This document shows positions 16,373 to 32,591 of a stretch of DNA of 64,000 bases, in pieces. The first letter of the stretch is position 1. Every line of letters starts with the position of its first letter. The notes beneath the pieces were generated by a model. The model made no database searches and had not been told where the DNA came from. It saw nothing but the letters and a program-made list of their open reading frames with translations. Location of the stretch: the NCBI RefSeq assembly GCF_005503555.1, contig NZ_SCNG01000002.1:868001-932000 (forward strand), written 5' to 3'. A program made the translations under genes and the position numbers. This stretch comes from Rudaea sp. 3F27F6. Lineage in GTDB: Bacteria > Pseudomonadota > Gammaproteobacteria > Xanthomonadales > Rhodanobacteraceae.

Positions 16373-16627
16373 TCAAGCCGCGCTGCGCGCGGCATCCGCA
16401 AGACGGGCGACGGCGGCACGCGCCAACTCGCTGAGTCCTTCGCCCTTCCGCTCGGCGAAATACGCAACGATCTTGCGGCGCATGCGCGGCTCCCAGAAAC
16501 GCGTCAGATGATTGACGATACCGTCGACCGCGAGTTCGCGGTCGGGTTCCGATTGAAAATAGTCGGCGATGTCGTTGACCATCTTGACCAGTGCGGCCGA
16601 AGCGTCGTGAGATTCGTGCAGGCTCAT
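16373..16627 (-). CDS. fdsD: Formate dehydrogenase delta subunit
   Basis: A small soluble protein of 84 residues of the FdsD family. Typical stretches are LVKMVNDIADYFQ and HLTRFWEPRMRRKIVAYF. In molybdenum-dependent, NAD-linked FdsABG enzymes it is needed for assembly or binds the complex, but is not catalytic. Its ATG overlaps the stop of fdhD (ATGA at 16624-16627), indicating translational coupling. It is the last gene of the fds operon; nothing further is seen in the ~100 bp after it. Confidence 0.93.
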   Translation of the reverse strand: MSLHESHDASAALVKMVNDIADYFQSEPDRELAVDGIVNHLTRFWEPRMRRKIVAYFAERKGEGLSELARAAVARLADAARSAA

Positions 16628-17499
16628 GCGGTGTTTTCCGGTTGCATATTGCGGACACGCGGCGCGGCGACGGCGGCGCGTTCGATCAAACGATGGCCAT
16701 GCGCATAGAGGCCGTAACCGTCGGCGCGGGCGAAGCCGACCAGAGTCAGATCCGTCTCCTGCGCGAGCGCGATCGCAAGTGCGGTCGGCGCCGAGATCGC
16801 GGCGAGAAAGCCGATGCCGACGGTCGCCGCCTTCATCACCATCTCGTAGCTCGCGCGGCTGGTGACGAGCAGAAAGCCCGCGCGCGGATCGATGCCTGCG
16901 CGCTGCATCGCTCCGATCAGCTTGTCGAGCGCGTTGTGGCGGCCGACGTCTTCGCGCAGCAGGACGACGCTGCCGTCGAGATTGGCCCAGGCGGCCGCAT
17001 GCACGGCGCCCGTCGCCGCATTGATCGTCTGCAGCTTCTGCATTTCGCCAAGCGCGCGCAGCAAAGCCGCCTCGCGCACATCGGGCGAGCCGGCTACCGC
17101 AGGCGGATGGCGTACGGCCGCATCGAGCGTCTGCGCGCCGCAGAGTCCGCAGCCCGTGCGTCCGGTCAGTTCGCGCACGCGGTCTTCGAGCTTTGCGGCT
17201 TTCTCGGCCGGAATGGCGATGTGCAATTCGATGCCGGCCAGCGCTTCGACTACTTCGATCTTCGTGCACTGCGCGGCGTTGTCGATAATGTTTTCGCTGA
17301 GGCTGAAACCCAATGCAAAATCTTCGAGATCGGCCGGCGTCGCCATCATCACCGCATGCGGGCGCTCGTTGTAAACGAAGGCAACCGGAATTTCCTCGGC
17401 GACTGCGTCGCGCACGCGCGCGGCGACGCCGTGGCGATGACGTTCGACTTCGCGTGTAACGGCGCCGTGGGGAACCGGGTTGTTTGAATGCGATTTCAA
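16624..17499 (-). CDS. fdhD: Formate dehydrogenase accessory sulfurtransferase FdhD
   Basis: A cytoplasmic protein of 291 residues that transfers sulfur to the molybdenum cofactor of formate dehydrogenases, an essential activation step. The two catalytic cysteines lie in GRTGCGLCG near 132-140, and DVGRHNALDKLIG near 223 is the other conserved segment. The likely start is TTG at 17499, with AAGG upstream; no suitable ATG exists. It follows fdsA after 165 bp that hold a composite repeat, and overlaps fdsD by four bases. Confidence 0.93.
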   Translation of the reverse strand: MKSHSNNPVPHGAVTREVERHRHGVAARVRDAVAEEIPVAFVYNERPHAVMMATPADLEDFALGFSLSENIIDNAAQCTKIEVVEALAGIELHIAIPAEKAAKLEDRVRELTGRTGCGLCGAQTLDAAVRHPPAVAGSPDVREAALLRALGEMQKLQTINAATGAVHAAAWANLDGSVVLLREDVGRHNALDKLIGAMQRAGIDPRAGFLLVTSRASYEMVMKAATVGIGFLAAISAPTALAIALAQETDLTLVGFARADGYGLYAHGHRLIERAAVAAPRVRNMQPENTA

Positions 17500-17514
17500 G
17501 CCGTAGTCGCCTTG

Positions 17515-17658
17515 CCTCCCTTCTCCCTGCGGGAGAAGGTGCCCGAAGGGCGGATGAGGGAAGAGCCTCGCAATTTTCTCGCGGAATCTTCAACAACGGC
17601 AGCGCTCCTCCCTCATCCGGCGCTGCCGCGCCACCTTCTCCCGATGGGAGAAGGAAAG
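17515..17658. repeat. 144-bp composite palindromic repeat, copy 2
   Basis: A noncoding element between fdsA and fdhD. Each end carries a hairpin: TTCTCCC-TGC-GGGAGAA at 17521-17537 and TTCTCCC-GAT-GGGAGAA at 17636-17652. Between them, GCGGATGAGGG and CCCTCATCCGGCGC face each other. The whole unit matches the reverse complement of 1935-2078 including its AT-richer core. If transcribed it would fold into paired stems and could affect fdhD-fdsD expression. Confidence 0.8.
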
Positions 17659-17664
17659 CTATCG

Positions 17665-20637
17665 CTACTTCGTCACCGCCTCCGACAACAGCTCCTGCTG
17701 CCTCTCACTGAACTTACGATAGCGCTGCTGCCAATCCGAAGGCTGGCTGACACGCGTGATCTGCACGGCAGTGACCTTGTATTCGGGGCAGTTCGTCGCC
17801 CAGTCGGAATTGTCGGTGGTGATCACGTTCGCGCCCGAGAACGGGAAATGGAAGGTGGTGTAGACCACGCCCGGCTGCATGCGCTCGCTGACCGTCGCGC
17901 GCAGGACGGTCTGGCCGGCACGGCTTTCGATGCCGACCCAGTCGCCGTCGACGATGCCTCGGTCTTCCGCGTCCTGCGGATGGAGTTCGAGGCGGTCTTC
18001 GCTGTGCCAGCGGCTGTTCTCGGTGCGCCGCGTCTGCGCGCCGACGTTGTACTGGCTCAAAATCCGCCCCGTGGTCAGGATCAGGGGATATTTCGCGTTG
18101 ACCTTCTCCGCGGTCGGCACGTACTCGGTCAGCATGAAGCGGCCTTTGCCGCGCACGAATTCATGCACGTGCATGGTCGGCGTGCCCTCGGGCGCGGCAT
18201 CATTACACGGCCATTGGATGCTGCCGAGGCGGTCGAGCTTGTCGAAGCTGACGCCGTGGAACGTCGGCGTCAACCGCGCGATCTCGTCCATGATTTCCGA
18301 CGGGTGCGCATAGTTCATCGGATAACCCATCGCGTTCGCGAGAAGCTGGGTGATCTCCCAGTCGGCATAGCCGCGCGTGCCGTCGGAATTGCGCGGTTGC
18401 ATCACGCGGCGCACGCGCGAGATGCGCCGCTCGGCGTTGGTGAAGGTGCCGTCCTTTTCGAGAAACGAGCTGCCCGGAAGAAAGACATGGGCGAACTTCG
18501 CCGTCTCGTTGAGAAACAGATCCTGCACGACGACGCATTCCATCGAGGTCAGCGACGCGGTCACATGCTGCGTGTTCGGATCGCTCTGCGCGATGTCTTC
18601 GCCTTCGATGTAGATCGCCTTGAATTCGCCGTCGAGTGCGGCTTCGAACATGTTCGGTATGCGCAGGCCGGGCTCGTTCTGCAGCGGCACGCCCCAGGCC
18701 TGCTCGAAACTCGCGCGCACGGCATCGTCATCCACATGGCGATAGCCCGGAAACTCGTGCGGGAACGAACCCATATCGCACGAGCCCTGCACGTTGTTCT
18801 GCCCGCGCAGCGGATTGACGCCGACGCCTTCGCGGCCGATGTTGCCGGTCGCCATCGCGAGATTGGCGATGCCCATGACCGTGGTCGAACCCTGCGAGTG
18901 CTCGGTCACGCCGAGGCCGTAATAGATCGCTGCGTTGCCGCCGGTTGCGTAAAGCCGTGCCGCGGCGCGCACATCGGCCGCCGCCACGCCGGTCACCTCC
19001 TCCATCGCCTCGGGCGAGTTTCTCGGCTCGGCGACGAACGCGCGCCACTTCGCGTACGCTTCGGGCTCGCAGCGTTCGCGCACGAAGGCTTCGCTCACCA
19101 GGCCTTCGTCGACGATCACGTGCGCGAGCGACGTCACGAGAGCGACGTTGGTGCCCGGCCGCAGCTTCAGGTGATAGTCCGCGCGCACGTGCGGCGTGCG
19201 CACGATGTCGATGCGGCGCGGATCGGCGACGATCAGTTTCGCGCCCTGGCGCAACCGGCGCTTCATCTGCGAGGCGAACACCGGATGGCCATCTGTGGGA
19301 TTGGCACCGATAACGAGGATCACGTCGGCCTGCATGACCGAATCGAAATCCTGCGTGCCGGCCGATTCGCCGAGCGTCTGCTTCAGACCGTAACCGGTCG
19401 GCGAATGGCAAACGCGCGCGCAGGTATCGACATTGTTGTTGCCGAACGCGGCGCGCACGAGCTTCTGCACGAGATAGGTTTCCTCGTTCGTGCAACGCGA
19501 AGAGGTGATACCGCCGATCGAGTCGCGGCCGTACTTGGCCTGGATGCGCTTGAACTCGCTCGCGGCGTGAGCGATCGCTTCCTGCCACGTCACCTCGCGC
19601 CACGGATCGCTAATCTTCGCGCGGATCATCGGCTTGAGGATGCGATCCTGGTGCGTCGCATAGCCGATTGCGAAGCGGCCCTTGACGCAGGAATGGCCGT
19701 GGTTGGCACTGCCATCCTTGTTCGGCACCATGCGCACGATGTCCTCGCCGCGCATTTCGGCGCGGAACGAGCAGCCGACGCCGCAGTAGGCGCAGGTCGT
19801 CGTCACGCTGTGCTCGGCCTGGCCCTGAGCGATCAGCGATTTCTCGCTCAGGGTCGCGGTCGGGCAAGCCTGCACGCAGGCGCCGCACGACACGCATTCC
19901 GAATCCATGAAACCCTCGTTCTGGCTCGCTGCAACTTTCGAGTCGAAGCCGCGGCCCTGGATTGTCAGCGCGAGCGTGCCCTGCTGCTCGTCGCAGGCGC
20001 GCACGCAGCGCGAGCAGACAATGCACTTGGACGGGTCGAAGGTGAAGTACGGATTGCTTTCGTCCTTGACCGCAAATAACGGATTGAAGCCTCCCCCTTC
20101 AAGGGTGAGGTTGGAGGGGGATGGTGTTTGCGTAGCGGTGAAATTGACACCGCCCCCACCACTTGAAGGGGAGGGCTTGAGCGTGGAGTAAACGTGATTC
20201 CTGCCGTCGTAGCCGTAGCGCACTTCGCGCAAGCCGACCGCGCCGGCCATGTCCTGCAGTTCGCAATGCCCGTTCGCCGGACAGGTCAGGCAGTCGAGCG
20301 GATGGTCGGAGATATACAGCTCCATCACGCCACGGCGGATGTCGGCGAGCTTCGCGTTCTGCGTCGTCACCTTCATACCGGCCGCTACCGGCGTCGTGCA
20401 CGAGGCCGGATAGCCTTTCATGCCTTCGATCTGCACAAGACAGAGCCGGCACGAGCCGAACGCATCGAGCAGCTCGGTCGCGCAGAGCTTGGGAATTTGT
20501 ATACCGACTTCGCTCGCCGCGCGCAGCACCGAGGTGCCGGCCGGCACGCTCACTTCGCGCCCGTCGATGGTCAGCGCCACCTGCTGCGCGGACTTGGACT
20601 TGGGCGTACCGAAATCGAGTTCGATTATCGACAACAT
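17665..20637 (-). CDS. fdsA: NAD-dependent formate dehydrogenase alpha subunit, with in-frame repeat insertion
   Basis: The catalytic subunit, 990 residues, oxidising formate to CO2. In order: a [2Fe-2S] domain (Cys52, 63, 66, 80); a NuoG-type His-Cys cluster (HPLDCLTCPANGHC, 112-125); two [4Fe-4S] motifs (CIVCSRCVRAC near 205-215, CVSCGACVQAC near 248-258); and a molybdopterin domain opened by CAYCGVGC at 282-289. Cys410 in VCHSPT is the expected Mo ligand, so the enzyme uses cysteine rather than selenocysteine. Start at 20637 (GAGG upstream). Residues ~151-190, rich in Pro, Ser and Gly, are encoded by a palindromic repeat and are not expected in FdsA. Confidence 0.95.
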   Translation of the reverse strand: MLSIIELDFGTPKSKSAQQVALTIDGREVSVPAGTSVLRAASEVGIQIPKLCATELLDAFGSCRLCLVQIEGMKGYPASCTTPVAAGMKVTTQNAKLADIRRGVMELYISDHPLDCLTCPANGHCELQDMAGAVGLREVRYGYDGRNHVYSTLKPSPSSGGGGVNFTATQTPSPSNLTLEGGGFNPLFAVKDESNPYFTFDPSKCIVCSRCVRACDEQQGTLALTIQGRGFDSKVAASQNEGFMDSECVSCGACVQACPTATLSEKSLIAQGQAEHSVTTTCAYCGVGCSFRAEMRGEDIVRMVPNKDGSANHGHSCVKGRFAIGYATHQDRILKPMIRAKISDPWREVTWQEAIAHAASEFKRIQAKYGRDSIGGITSSRCTNEETYLVQKLVRAAFGNNNVDTCARVCHSPTGYGLKQTLGESAGTQDFDSVMQADVILVIGANPTDGHPVFASQMKRRLRQGAKLIVADPRRIDIVRTPHVRADYHLKLRPGTNVALVTSLAHVIVDEGLVSEAFVRERCEPEAYAKWRAFVAEPRNSPEAMEEVTGVAAADVRAAARLYATGGNAAIYYGLGVTEHSQGSTTVMGIANLAMATGNIGREGVGVNPLRGQNNVQGSCDMGSFPHEFPGYRHVDDDAVRASFEQAWGVPLQNEPGLRIPNMFEAALDGEFKAIYIEGEDIAQSDPNTQHVTASLTSMECVVVQDLFLNETAKFAHVFLPGSSFLEKDGTFTNAERRISRVRRVMQPRNSDGTRGYADWEITQLLANAMGYPMNYAHPSEIMDEIARLTPTFHGVSFDKLDRLGSIQWPCNDAAPEGTPTMHVHEFVRGKGRFMLTEYVPTAEKVNAKYPLILTTGRILSQYNVGAQTRRTENSRWHSEDRLELHPQDAEDRGIVDGDWVGIESRAGQTVLRATVSERMQPGVVYTTFHFPFSGANVITTDNSDWATNCPEYKVTAVQITRVSQPSDWQQRYRKFSERQQELLSEAVTK
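20087..20178. repeat. Palindromic repeat inserted in-frame in fdsA
   Basis: A 92-bp segment whose ends are inverted copies: AAGCCTCCCCCTTCAAGGG at one side and, reversed, AAGCCCTCCCCTTCAAGT at the other. This is the CCCTCCCCTTCAAGGGGAGGG type of intergenic repeat known from xanthomonads. Here it lies inside the fdsA frame without a stop or frameshift. It encodes a Pro/Ser/Gly-rich linker between the His-Cys cluster and the next ferredoxin domain. Confidence 0.8.
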
Positions 20638-20664
20638 ATTGCCTACCTCATCAAAGCCAGAGCA

Positions 20665-20751
20665 TTTGACCACGGATTACACGGATCACACGGATAAGAG
20701 CGAATTCAGAAATTTTCTTGATCCGTGTGATCCGTATAATCCGTGGTTAAA
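20665..20751. repeat. Long hairpin between fdsB and fdsA
   Basis: Two 27-base arms (20669-20695 and 20721-20747) are inverted copies with a single mismatch. They are built from the iterated ACGGATTACACGGATCACACGG motif and separated by 25 bases. This motif is a dispersed repeat found in many proteobacteria. Within the fds transcript it would form a very stable stem just before the fdsA ribosome binding site. It may change the fdsB:fdsA ratio or block RNA decay. Confidence 0.85.
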
Positions 20752-20758
20752 ACTGCTC

Positions 20759-22363
20759 TTAAGAAAAATCTTCCGAGAAATACTTGATCGCGCTGACCAC
20801 CGGATCCGGCGTCAGACCCCCGAGCGCGCACAACGATCCGTAGCGCATCGTGCTGCACAGATCGTCGAGCAGCGCGAGGTTCTTTTCCCGATCGACATTC
20901 GCCCGAATGCGATCGATCACCTCGACGCCGCGCGTCGAGCCGATCCGGCACGGCGTGCACTTGCCGCAGGACTCAACCGCGCAGAACTCCATCGCGTAGC
21001 GCGCCTGCTCCAGCATGTCGACCGTGTCGTCGAAAGCAACGATGCCGCCGTGGCCGAGCATCGCGCCGATCGCGGCGAAGGCTTCGTAGTCGACGACCGT
21101 GTCGAACTGCGATTCCGGCAGATACGCTCCGAGCGGGCCGCCGACCTGTACCGCGCGGATCAGCCGGCCCGAATACGAACCGCCGCCGTAGTCGTACAAC
21201 AATTCGCGCAGGGTCACGCCGAATGCTTTTTCGACCAGGCCCGTGCGCTTGAGGTTCCCGGCAAGCTGGATCGGCAAGGTGCCGCGCGAGCGGCCGACGC
21301 CGTAGTCTCGATAGAACTCTGCGCCGCGGTCGAGAATGGCAGGCACCGAGGCGAACGAGATCACGTTGTTGATCACCGTCGGCTTGCCGAACAGACCCTT
21401 GAGTGCCGGCAGCGGCGGCTTGTAGCGCACCTGGCCGCGCTTGCCTTCGAGGCTGTCGAGCAAGGACGTTTCCTCGCCGCAGATGTAGGCGCCCGCGCCG
21501 AGGCGCACTTCGAGATCGAAGCGCTTGCCGCTGCCGAGAATGTCGGCGCCGAGGTAGCCAGCCGCGTAGGCGTTCTCGATCGCCGCGGCCAGCGCGCGAT
21601 GCGCGTGCGGATATTCGCTGCGCAGATAGATATAGCCCTGGCTCGCGCCGACGGCAATGCCCGCGATCGTCATGCCTTCGATCAGGCAGAACGGATCGCC
21701 TTCCATCAGCATGCGGTCGGAGAACGTGCCGGAGTCGCCTTCGTCGGCATTGCAGACGATGAAAGACCGGGATTGGGGATTTGGGATTTGGGATTCGGAA
21801 GAGCCTGCGGCATCGAGCGCCGCGCGCGCGGCGCTCGATGCGTCCAGAACGGTCTTCCATTTGATGCCGGTCGGAAACGCCGCGCCGCCGCGGCCGCGCA
21901 GGCCGGAATCGGTGACGATCTTGACGATGTCGGCGCCGCTCAGCGCGAGCGCATTTTTCAGACCGCGGTAGCCACCGTGGGCCAGATAGTCCTCGACGCT
22001 GAGAGGATCGGTGATACCGACGCGCGCGAAACACAATCGCTGCTGTTGCTTGAACCAGGCGAGGTCTTCGACCGCGCCGAGACGCAGCGCATGCGCACCG
22101 CCGTACAGAAAATCCGCATCGAACAAGCTCGTGACATCGGCCGCTTTGACCGGCGCGTAGGCGATGCGCCCCTTCGGTGTCGCCACTTCGATCAACGGTT
22201 CCAGCCAGAACATTCCGCGCGAGCCATTGCGCACGAGATCGATCTCGATGCCGCGGCTGCGCGCCGTTTCCGCGATCGCCTGCGCGACGCGATCCGCGCC
22301 AAGCGCCAGCGCAGCGGCGTCGCGCGGCAGGTAAATCTTGATTGGCGAAGTCGACGCATTCAT
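20759..22363 (-). CDS. fdsB: NAD-dependent formate dehydrogenase beta subunit, with in-frame repeat insertion
   Basis: A NuoF-like flavin/iron-sulfur subunit of 534 residues that passes electrons to NAD+. RGRGGAAFPTGIKW (156-169) and NADEGDSGTF (205-214) form the NADH/FMN site, GAGAYICGEETSLLDSLEG the second nucleotide segment, and ESCGKCTPCRIG plus LCALGG bind the [4Fe-4S] cluster. An N-terminal ~110-residue thioredoxin-like part is present, as in FdsB. Residues ~174-200 (containing SESQIPNPQSR) interrupt the usually short loop before FIVCNADEG and are repeat-derived. The ATG overlaps the fdsG stop (ATGA). Confidence 0.95.
   Translation of the reverse strand: MNASTSPIKIYLPRDAAALALGADRVAQAIAETARSRGIEIDLVRNGSRGMFWLEPLIEVATPKGRIAYAPVKAADVTSLFDADFLYGGAHALRLGAVEDLAWFKQQQRLCFARVGITDPLSVEDYLAHGGYRGLKNALALSGADIVKIVTDSGLRGRGGAAFPTGIKWKTVLDASSAARAALDAAGSSESQIPNPQSRSFIVCNADEGDSGTFSDRMLMEGDPFCLIEGMTIAGIAVGASQGYIYLRSEYPHAHRALAAAIENAYAAGYLGADILGSGKRFDLEVRLGAGAYICGEETSLLDSLEGKRGQVRYKPPLPALKGLFGKPTVINNVISFASVPAILDRGAEFYRDYGVGRSRGTLPIQLAGNLKRTGLVEKAFGVTLRELLYDYGGGSYSGRLIRAVQVGGPLGAYLPESQFDTVVDYEAFAAIGAMLGHGGIVAFDDTVDMLEQARYAMEFCAVESCGKCTPCRIGSTRGVEVIDRIRANVDREKNLALLDDLCSTMRYGSLCALGGLTPDPVVSAIKYFSEDFS
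21770..21842. repeat. Repeat and 32-bp perfect palindrome inserted in-frame in fdsB
   Basis: Two parts are adjacent. Positions 21770-21797 hold the iterated GGGATTTGGGATT motif, another dispersed repeat type. Positions 21810-21841 form a perfect 32-bp palindrome: CATCGAGCGC, a self-complementary CGCGCGCGCG centre, then GCGCTCGATG. Both are read through in the fdsB frame and give a short Ala/Ser/Pro-rich loop. Confidence 0.75.
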
Positions 22364-22932
22364 GCGCTCGCACTCCTCGCGTCGCCGACGAGTTCGTCGA
22401 ACGCCTCCGGTGTCACGCGTGCGTACAACTCGACAGTTGCGTGTGCTTCCCCGCTCACCGCTCCACGCGCACTGCTCTCCACGAGCACCGACGGTCCGCA
22501 GCCGCAGTTGCCGAGGCAGTAGACCGGCTCCAGGGTGATCGCACCGTCGCTCGTCGTTTCGTGAAAATCGATGCCGAGACTCTGCTTTGCATGTGCTTCG
22601 AGCGCGCGCGCGCCGAGCGCCTGGCAGGCCTCCGCACGGCAGATGCGCACGATGCGGCGTCCCGGCGGCGACGCGCGGAAATGATGATAGAACGTGACTA
22701 CACCATGCACTTCGGCACGCGTGACGTTCAGCTCGTGCGCGATCAGCGCGAGCGATTCGGGCGGCACGTAGCCGAGCGCGTCCTGCACGCCGTGCAGGAT
22801 CGGCAACAACGCGCCGGGCTTTTCGCGCTGCGCATCAATCGCCTGCATCACCGCCTGCCGCATCGGCGCGGGCAACGGCGGCAATTTGTACGCCTTACTT
22901 TCAACCACCACATTGATTTTCGCTGGCTTCAT
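22360..22932 (-). CDS. fdsG: NAD-dependent formate dehydrogenase gamma subunit
   Basis: A NuoE-like subunit of 190 residues carrying one [2Fe-2S] cluster. Ligand candidates are the cysteines of RICRAEACQALGA and of VYCLGNCGCGPSVLV. The helical N-terminal part contains LPILHGVQDALGYVPPESL, typical of the family. It relays electrons between FdsB and FdsA in the soluble FdsABG complex. It is the first catalytic gene of the operon and overlaps fdsB by four bases. The OFA transporter gene ends 99 bp upstream. Confidence 0.94.
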   Translation of the reverse strand: MKPAKINVVVESKAYKLPPLPAPMRQAVMQAIDAQREKPGALLPILHGVQDALGYVPPESLALIAHELNVTRAEVHGVVTFYHHFRASPPGRRIVRICRAEACQALGARALEAHAKQSLGIDFHETTSDGAITLEPVYCLGNCGCGPSVLVESSARGAVSGEAHATVELYARVTPEAFDELVGDARSASA

Positions 22933-31076: not shown

Positions 31077-32591
31077 CTACCAGCCGCTGATGTTGACGGG
31101 CTGCCCGGAGCGGCCCTGCGCGCCCGGCGCGAGATCGACATTCAACTGGCGCATACGAATGCGGTTTTGGGTCAAGGCGTCGGCTATTTCACCTTCGAGT
31201 CCCGCATCGCCCAGACGCAGCCTTTGCACGGCATCGAGCACTTCGGCGCGCCAGGTGCCTGGCAGCACGGACTTCGCCGCGGGGAAATTGCCTTTCATGC
31301 TCGTTTTCACATCGCTGACGATGATTTCCATGAGGCCCGTTCCGGCCTGACGCGCCGCGGTGATGAAATCGACGCCGGCGACGTTCGCACCGGCCGGCGC
31401 CTGCAGACCGATTTCGCCCTGGTCGAAACGTGCCTCGTGATAGGCGAGGCTTTCGCCCTTGTTCGCATTGGTCGAGGTGGCATGAGAGGCCGGCACGCGC
31501 GAGCGGCCCATGACCTGGAAACGCTCGCCGGAGAACGGGTCCACATGGTACTGCCCGGCCCATGCGTCGGCGCCGGCGGATTCCAAGCCTTTGGCCCAGG
31601 AGCGCGGCGGCGCAACGGTGCCGGGCTTGCCCGCCTTCGGCTGCCACAACGTTGCGTACATGCACAGCCGGCGCGATATGCGGTAACCGTTCGCATACGG
31701 CGTCGGCGGCTTGCCGACGACCGGTGTCTGCAGATCGCCCGCCAGCGCGATCAGAAACTGCCTCGCGATATCGGTCTTGTCGATGCCGAGCAGGGTCTGC
31801 GCGCGCACGAAATCACCGCGCCCGAACGCGCCGGCCGCCGCCACGAGATTCTCGTAGCCCACCGCGCAGCCGCGCGTGCCGTCGCGCACACCCGCAAGGA
31901 ACGGATCGGGCTCGCCTTGCGTCTGCCGATTCTGCGCCTGCGCCGGCGCTTCCCACGGCCACGGAGTCGATGGCGTTTTGGAAAAGCAGCGGCACCCCGA
32001 CGGCGCGCCGCGCAAGGTCGGGTTCGCGCAAAAGTTGTAGCCGCCGGCCACGCCGTTCGTGGTCGAGTAGCCTCCCGGGAAACACGCCGCAGTGGCGGCC
32101 GAGCCTGCGCCGGTCCTGAGCCACTTGCCGGGGTCGCCCTGCCCGGGCGACGGCGTTCCACGTCCGTTTTGCGCGGGTCCGGGAGCAGTACCGCCGGGCC
32201 CTGGAGAAGTCTCCGCGTAGCCCGACAACGGCGGGCGTCCGCCCGGATTTTGCGTGCCGGTCGGGCATGACCAATTGCGCGGATGGCCGCCGCCGGGCAA
32301 GGTCGGCGGCGGACAGTTCGGATTGCCGACGACGCCCTGTGTACCGGTCGGGCACGACCAGTTGCGCGGATGGTCGCCGCCGAGCAGGGTCGGCGGTGGG
32401 CAATTCGGATTGCCGACGACGCCCTGGGTACCCGTGCTGCCGCTCGAAAAAATTTCGGTGGGCGGCGAGTTTCCCTGCTGATTCTGCTGCGTGTTGGAAA
32501 CGCGCCCTTGCAGCGGCTGCCCGGACTGACTGCGGGCCAGACCCGCGTACAGGCAGAAACCGATCAACAGTAGCGATGCAATCGTCCTCAT
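31077..32591 (-). CDS. Unrecognised secreted protein with duplicated 29-residue unit and possible nuclease-like C-terminus
   Basis: I do not recognise the family. The ATG at 32591 gives a signal peptide (MRTIASLLLIGFCLYAGLARS). Residues 53-81 and 82-110 are a near-perfect tandem pair (TGTQGVVGNPNCPPPTL...NWSCP), followed by a Pro/Gly-rich linker to ~160, a Cys-containing region (170-201) and a globular C-terminal half. There, GVDFI (Asp408) and IIVSDVKTS (Asp427, Lys429), with acidic residues at 386 and 393, resemble the E...D...(D/E)xK layout of PD-(D/E)xK nucleases. That is only pattern similarity. No immunity-like gene is adjacent. Repeats flank it on both sides. Confidence 0.75.
   Translation of the reverse strand: MRTIASLLLIGFCLYAGLARSQSGQPLQGRVSNTQQNQQGNSPPTEIFSSGSTGTQGVVGNPNCPPPTLLGGDHPRNWSCPTGTQGVVGNPNCPPPTLPGGGHPRNWSCPTGTQNPGGRPPLSGYAETSPGPGGTAPGPAQNGRGTPSPGQGDPGKWLRTGAGSAATAACFPGGYSTTNGVAGGYNFCANPTLRGAPSGCRCFSKTPSTPWPWEAPAQAQNRQTQGEPDPFLAGVRDGTRGCAVGYENLVAAAGAFGRGDFVRAQTLLGIDKTDIARQFLIALAGDLQTPVVGKPPTPYANGYRISRRLCMYATLWQPKAGKPGTVAPPRSWAKGLESAGADAWAGQYHVDPFSGERFQVMGRSRVPASHATSTNANKGESLAYHEARFDQGEIGLQAPAGANVAGVDFITAARQAGTGLMEIIVSDVKTSMKGNFPAAKSVLPGTWRAEVLDAVQRLRLGDAGLEGEIADALTQNRIRMRQLNVDLAPGAQGRSGQPVNISGW
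32262..32435 (-). repeat. Two tandem 87-bp units within the secreted-protein gene
   Basis: Two consecutive 87-bp units (32349-32435 and 32262-32348) encode residues 53-81 and 82-110. The copies differ at a few bases, giving LLGGDHP versus LPGGGHP. Each unit has two Cys and an NPNCPPPTL core. A truncated third start (TGTQ) follows. The high DNA identity points to recent duplication. Confidence 0.9.

Follow-up and report, generated by a model that had tools for sequence, protein, structure and literature searches.

The 64,000-nucleotide window analysed here (Rudaea sp. 3F27F6, contig NZ_SCNG01000002.1, positions 868,001 to 932,000) contains the gene fdsA for the alpha subunit of formate dehydrogenase and, in frame within this gene, an imperfect palindrome that we call element A. 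We propose that element A is, with high probability, a non-autonomous and probably mobile palindromic repeat that was inserted at a permissive linker of FdsA, a linker that has been filled several times. Judged from the sequences, the linker in the window is probably long by the capture of a dispersed repeat, and a one-off event is excluded, because at least two unrelated repeat families are present at the same linker. The features concerned are as follows.

17665 to 20637, minus strand: fdsA, formate dehydrogenase alpha subunit (open reading frame, Pfam domains, phmmer matches to FdsA chains)
20087 to 20178, minus strand: element A, imperfect palindrome read in frame as KPSPSSGGGGVNFTATQTPSPSNLTLEGGG, about residues 154-184 of FdsA (inverted repeat, copies in the genome)
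20087 to 20103, plus strand: left end of the element A palindrome (inverted repeat)
20162 to 20178, plus strand: right end of the element A palindrome (inverted repeat)

The inverted ends around the 92-bp segment, to which the original prediction had drawn attention, are 17 nt long and 88% complementary. As had also been predicted, the segment is read in frame in the part of FdsA that joins the His-Cys [4Fe-4S] domain to the ferredoxin domain, with the open reading frame (ORF) of fdsA being unbroken across it. The ORF has 1002 aa when counted from an upstream GTG at 20673; the start is likely the ATG at 20637, with the GTG being possible. Over 17665-20673 the Pfam domains Fer2_4, NADH-G_4Fe-4S_3, Fer4_7, Molybdop_Fe4S4, Molybdopterin and Molydop_binding are found, and in the GTG numbering the segment lies between the end of NADH-G_4Fe-4S_3 (PF10588) at 152 and the start of Fer4_7 at 216. 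The protein matches by phmmer the solved FdsA chains 9wxb and 6tg9, the latter of which we take to be Rhodobacter capsulatus FdsA. The arms of element A are read without a stop as a polar peptide rich in Pro, Ser, Gly and Glu (KPSPSRGG / PNPPLEGEG), and the segment would presumably be part of the mature FdsA protein.

That the genome holds other copies of the repeat, as had been supposed, is borne out by BLASTN, by the arm pattern and by consensus matches. BLASTN with 111 bp gave partial matches on contigs C8, C9, C12 and C13 of the window's own genome, the best non-self E value being 3.7e-6, and the arm pattern at up to three mismatches gave eight palindromic sites in this genome, with 0 for the reversed-pattern control. 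Grouping of the eight sites gives six loci including that of the window, one of which (on C12) is interrupted and weak (BLASTN E 0.3, 3 mismatches, unmatched by the consensus), while the copy at C13:353780 ends at the contig end. When the core is masked, a consensus with the arms CCCTCCCCTTCAAGGGGAGGG-TTGGGTGGGGATGGTGTT finds five of these loci at E <=0.01, with the window's match being 83% over one arm, and the copies are homologous outside the 21-nt arm core. Two of the six loci are in frame within enzyme genes (FdsA and an IcmF-like protein) and the other four are intergenic, as read from their flanks rather than from gene calls. The idea that an intergenic repeat was inserted in a catalytic subunit gene is thus upheld as to a dispersed repeat lying in frame, but not as to its confinement to intergenic DNA. 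Across 233 genomes of the Rhodanobacteraceae (the family genomes below), the arm pattern at up to one mismatch is present in 51, with the control 0 throughout; the sites number 136 in genome G096, 86 in G028, 45 in G259 and 5 in the window's genome.

To see the linker in relatives, 80 FdsA loci were fetched from genome contigs, of which 70 were parsed by the linker pattern and 10 were not. Taken from NH to NPYF, the linker has 8 residues in 56 of the 70 (e.g. LQSAKDES) and 9-40 residues in the other 14; it has 46 residues in the window. It has 20 aa in Dyella-like relatives and others, e.g. VYAKSAQGEANPLFAAKDES. The solved chains 9wxb and 6tg9 have the same domain order as the window's FdsA and a linker of about 19 residues of the NP..PKD type, but in the aligned sequence they carry no palindromic insert. 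The statement in the original prediction that FdsA has only a short linker there is therefore mostly right, with linkers of at least 34 residues, of a sequence different from the window's, being present in many Rhodanobacteraceae. The conserved occurrence of the segment in the FdsA of distant genera, which the original prediction had named as speaking against it, was not seen: the FdsA of other genera have other sequences there.

Within the family, FdsA was found in 86 of the 233 genomes and its linker was read in 79; the linker was not extracted in G177, G085, G084, G254, G089, G092 and G082, which are outside the tree described below, as is also G004. Classes were assigned by our own regular expressions, under which the 79 linkers comprise 35 of the 20-residue type, 13 of the 8-residue type, 18 with a second repeat, element B, in forward orientation (the rows of G001, G013, G019 and G114 being degenerate), 5 with element B reversed, 3 with A-type DNA and 5 longer ones without a class. 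The three with A-type DNA are those of the window, of G099, where the arm-pattern match C10:751256 lies within fdsA, and of G096, where on reading the A-type arms are mixed with other hairpins. The KPS.S and LEG readings of the arms are common to the window, G099 and the IcmF-like protein. The closest relative of the window's FdsA (G008, 91% identity) has a linker of 35 residues that is unrelated in sequence, and on reading, none of the window's three palindromes (element A and those in the two gaps around fdsA) was seen at the matching places of G008. The G008 linker was also tried as a repeat with a 111-bp query that covered only part of it, and was not accepted because the best extra match (31 bp, 88%, E 0.0026) looks coding.

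Element B, which is unrelated to element A, consists of two hairpins, GCGATC..GATCGC and GCGGCCATCCATGGCCGC, that are separated by a short spacer. It is the dispersed element that encodes the peptide of the 34-residue FdsA linkers like ASIPAREDQEAAIHGRTPQ in several Rhodanobacteraceae. By tblastn, this peptide is matched at many sites, often in short ORFs; at E <=10, for instance, G008 has 23 such matches and G060 has 10. The B pattern at up to three mismatches is present in 171 of the 233 family genomes, with 0-74 copies per genome and 11 in the window's genome, while the reversed control gives at most one match per genome. In forward orientation element B reads RED-Q-AAI-GRT in most cases, some being degenerate; in B-reverse the complementary strand of B is translated through a different open frame, as EKSGHGWPVLDSGDQGRS. 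One of the 18 B-forward linkers, that of G122 (L223), consists of four tandem 60-bp copies. Perfect B hairpins in FdsA occur with two stem sequences, GCGAGC/GCTCGC and GCGCGC/GCGCGC. The pairing of the B-forward hairpin was compared with that of synonymous recodings in 11 genomes, those parsed of the 18 B-forward rows; it is in excess (P <0.05 for at least one copy) in 9 of them. The excess is absent in G141 (P 0.10), in G110 (P 0.47) and in two of the four tandem copies of G122. This excess is accounted for equally well by recent insertion. It is also noted that G187, G183 and G180 have a B-reverse FdsA linker and, by pattern, no other B copy in the genome; this linker is a candidate for a relic or for a transferred gene.

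To see how the linker states are distributed among the species, a DNA tree was built on the linker-flanking sequence of 90 FdsA genes, i.e., 79 of the family and 11 others, one of which duplicates a family member, with 660 columns and with a bootstrap that is not fully settled. On this tree the linker type needs 28 changes; the figures are 15 for B-forward (at least 12 being forced by supported branches), 3 for B-reverse and 3 for A. The protein tree gives equal totals for these three types, but the changes that are forced by supported branches number there only 2, 1 and 3, respectively. The close sisters G214, G231 and G230 (support 100/98) have a 20-residue, a B-forward and a B-reverse linker, respectively. 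It should be mentioned that these changes are changes of state and not necessarily gains. By a rough Poisson estimate about 0.09 B matches are expected at one 60-bp site with one tenth of the genome open, a value that is based on the B counts of 79 genomes with related genomes pooled and a 4.2-Mb genome assumed and is thus good to an order of magnitude only. By this rough estimate, the occurrences of B in the FdsA linker are far above random landing.

The repeats are also present in frame in other proteins. In the window's own genome, the ORF G000:C13:328438-331479 (L005), which we call IcmF-like because of its order of domains (B12-binding, MeaB GTPase and methylmalonyl-CoA mutase), carries the A-type insert KPSPPNPPLEGEG...ALKPSPSRGGLGGDG, with the linker having 98 residues; of 24 relatives fetched, the 13 that were parsed have 20-29. 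A second linker of this protein is variable too. It is occupied by a third repeat, element C, in the genomes of the window and of G011, by a VIPAKAG-type palindrome in G010 and by a long sequence without a class in G008, with 7 loci parsed out of 25. For element B, eight of the nine ORFs that were checked by Pfam share the frame with a Pfam domain. The element is in frame inside DnaG, where the insert is of 20 residues relative to the solved structure, inside GcvP, which is there 13 residues longer than the solved structure, and inside a HutF-like amidohydrolase, with 22 residues versus 1 in the solved structure. It forms the C-terminal tail of four Pfam-checked Aminotran_4 proteins; three more such tails are confirmed and six further ones are identified by eye only. 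In L281, element B lies within a 118-aa frame with no Pfam match. One of the eight ORFs, a DAHP synthase (L286), was rejected as a coding case, as B lies there ahead of an ATG that is a plausible start (MTTHHTDDL) and could belong to a leader. As a separate observation, in the Aminotran_4 proteins L264, L271, L272, L154 and others the element B tail is followed directly by the start of the next gene, which looks like leuC; the tail of L271 has two element B copies in tandem.

Based on these data, our explanation is as follows. Element A would have been inserted where fdsA encodes the passage from the His-Cys [4Fe-4S] domain to the ferredoxin domain. With stop-free arms and a total length that keeps the frame, the insertion would have resulted in a longer linker that was tolerated. 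The FdsA linker would be generally permissive, having accepted element A in the window, A-type DNA in two further species, and element B forward, reversed and, in one case, as four tandem copies. The open frames of the elements give mostly polar peptides, so that in-frame insertion in a linker should be tolerated; frame-keeping inserts in flexible interdomain connections would thus persist, and such linkers would gather repeats. We infer from sequence that the element arrived by transposition, that the insertion is neutral, that the segment is translated and that it was retained because the linker tolerates length.

Several results weigh against this explanation. When read straight through in the KPSPSRGG frame, the full-length consensus of element A reaches a stop, so that the window's frame is open because its copy deviates from the consensus, to an arm of which it is only about 83% alike; the copies borne by FdsA differ in length from the consensus, which keeps the frame open. 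The closest FdsA, that of G008, has its unrelated 35-aa linker instead of an empty site, so that the ends given here for element A in fdsA are approximate and some DNA may have been replaced. No target-site duplication was found at the window's element A, the nearest relative G008 differing in the linker. As to the RNA, the fdsA-sense strand of 20080-20190 folds with -47.7 kcal/mol (z -6.2 relative to dinucleotide shuffles, 0 of 200 as low), but relative to synonymous recodings of the peptide the fold is not exceptional, 253 of 1000 being as low, and it therefore gives no sign that the hairpin itself is kept.

This last result is also what one would expect if Pro and Gly codons simply look palindromic, i.e., if the element were a chance similarity or an assembly artefact. 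We consider that explanation highly improbable, as the matches to other genomic copies reach E 3.7e-6 with the reversed-pattern control at 0, homology extends past the 21-nt arm core and the same repeat type is in frame in the IcmF-like gene. A weightier alternative, which we regard as possible though not probable, is that the linker alleles have few origins and were spread by recombination or transfer of fdsA, with the changes on the tree being exchanges. This would be consistent with most B-forward linkers beginning at an identical place after NHV[YF]A, with the three g43 genomes that have a B-reverse FdsA but by pattern no B copy elsewhere, and with a tree that is based on 660 columns and a protein tree whose support forces only two B-forward changes. 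Against it, A, B-forward and B-reverse are impossible as a single event, the boundaries differ in G231, G087, G088 and G081, and the 20-aa state looks ancestral, since the linkers of Nevskia-type FdsA and of the solved chains are like it.

It could also be supposed that a long linker is kept for a function, such as spacing of the Fe-S domains, assembly or contact with a partner, with the repeats being raw material whose capture is favoured by selection. The recurrence of long linkers in the family, the in-frame fourfold array in G122 and the rate of B matches above random landing in the rough estimate would fit such a selection; that the linker has only 8 or about 20 residues in 48 of the 79 family members in which it was read, and that the inserted sequences are unrelated to each other, makes it unlikely in our opinion. 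Still less likely is a preferred DNA target, where the sequence or structure of this codon stretch draws the transposase of the elements. The identical boundary in most B-forward cases and the resemblance of the junction CATGTTTATGC to the TTTGC end of element B would be explained by such a target, but the unrelated elements A and B are at the same site, the sole Y1 transposase gene found has none of elements A, B, C and E within the surrounding 3.3 kb, and the other proteins were entered at unrelated sites. Finally, in a more speculative and rather improbable extension of our explanation, linkers of multidomain enzymes in Rhodanobacteraceae would be landing pads whose coding hairpins are kept because they are of use, for instance in making the ribosome slow down between the Fe-S domains. 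If this is true, selfish DNA would be the source of an RNA pause signal as well as of a protein linker. The two stem variants of the perfect B hairpins fit this reading, and independent insertion of stem variants predicts them too.

The original prediction had likened the segment in principle to the Rickettsia palindromic elements (RPEs), and this likeness in kind is sustained. RPEs, as presented in the review PMC10969869, are dispersed palindromic repeats of several families that are present between genes and in frame in unrelated genes. The present elements are likewise dispersed palindromic families (the window's genome has A at 6 loci, one of them weak, and B in 11 copies), lie within unrelated genes in frame (A in FdsA and the IcmF-like protein, B in DnaG, GcvP, the HutF-like protein and Aminotran_4 proteins) and make recurrent use of one stop-free frame (KPS.S/LEG for A and RED-Q-AAI-GRT for B forward), with B-reverse using another. 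Unlike RPEs, their hosts are Rhodanobacteraceae and one enzyme linker contains unrelated families in both orientations; the elements are likened to RPEs by description and not by sequence.

Another comparison is with the GTAG/CGTC repetitive extragenic palindromic (REP) sequences. Di Nocera et al. 2013 (PMC3733652) describe these, as dimers or in clusters, within ORFs of several species, and state that the recB genes of X. campestris and X. oryzae contain different REPs at about the same position. Elements A and B are like these in being short palindromes within ORFs, with recB being a precedent for different repeats near one site. They differ in their ends (AAGCCCTCCCC for A and TTTGCG... / ...CACT for B), which by eye lack the GTAG or CGTC tag, CGTC being found in element B only in a loop. 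They differ also in the targets, which are FdsA, the IcmF-like mutase, DnaG, GcvP, the HutF-like hydrolase and aminotransferase tails, and unlike in that REP work the linker states are here traced over 79 genomes on a tree. For comparison with REPs in copy number, A at up to one mismatch has 5 sites in its own genome, 136 in G096 and 86 in G028, and B has 0-74 per genome. When a link to a REP-associated tyrosine transposase was sought, one Y1_Tnp gene was found in the window's genome, and its surrounding 3.3 kb are free of elements A, B, C and E. With its terminal inverted repeats (17 nt, 88%), element A resembles miniature inverted-repeat transposable elements (MITEs), and with MITEs and REPINs (REP doublets forming hairpins) these elements share the character of non-autonomous inverted-repeat elements of about 100 bp; unlike for those, no transposase partner or target duplication was found for A or B.

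A literature search, mostly of non-subscription sources and limited to top-ranked results, gave no account of palindromic repeats within FdsA or within coding sequence of the Rhodanobacteraceae. What is new is these element families, this enzyme and the repeated filling of one linker, in-frame palindromes as such being known. Coding palindromes are thereby extended beyond Rickettsia and, judged by the ends, beyond the tagged REP families, to metabolic and replication enzymes of a further bacterial family. Close species in which one linker is empty, filled forward, filled in reverse or filled by a tandem array constitute a natural experiment on activity, stability and translation, bearing on how selfish DNA becomes protein sequence and on how linkers tolerate new sequence.

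The surroundings of fdsA contain the following features.

20759 to 22363, minus strand: neighbour ORF of fdsA (ORF list), presumably fdsB
22360 to 22932, minus strand: neighbour ORF of fdsA (ORF list), presumably fdsG
16624 to 17499, minus strand: ORF downstream of fdsA (ORF list), which we take to be fdhD/fdsC
20665 to 20751, unstranded: second palindrome ACCACGGATTACACGGATCACACGGAT, unrelated to element A, in the upstream gap of fdsA (31-nt arms, 94%)
17514 to 17659, unstranded: third palindrome, CCTTCTCCC...GGGAGAAGG, of element C type, in the downstream gap of fdsA (inverted repeat)

The window's fdsA is thus surrounded or entered by three unrelated palindromes, at 20665-20751, at element A and at 17514-17659. 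A search of 17400-20900 against Rfam at E <=0.1 gave no match at element A, and four sub-threshold miRNA matches at the two intergenic palindromes were judged to be chance hairpin matches. The PLSDB plasmid search gave no match. A structure model of the full FdsA had a mean predicted local distance difference test (pLDDT) score of 63.2, with values below 50 over 118-282, and that of an N-terminal construct 47.7, so the models were uninformative. The architecture of FdsA is treated in PMC7171172. In one group of FdsA proteins (L251, L252, L253, L202, L203 and L242) a cysteine of the His-Cys Fe-S motif is absent (CELQ being replaced by a TEM-type sequence), which suggests that the Fe-S cluster may be lost or changed there. 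Elsewhere in the window, 1934-1968 contains a single arm of the element C type palindromic sequence and 32251-32424 a tandem pair of 87-bp units that are 89% alike.

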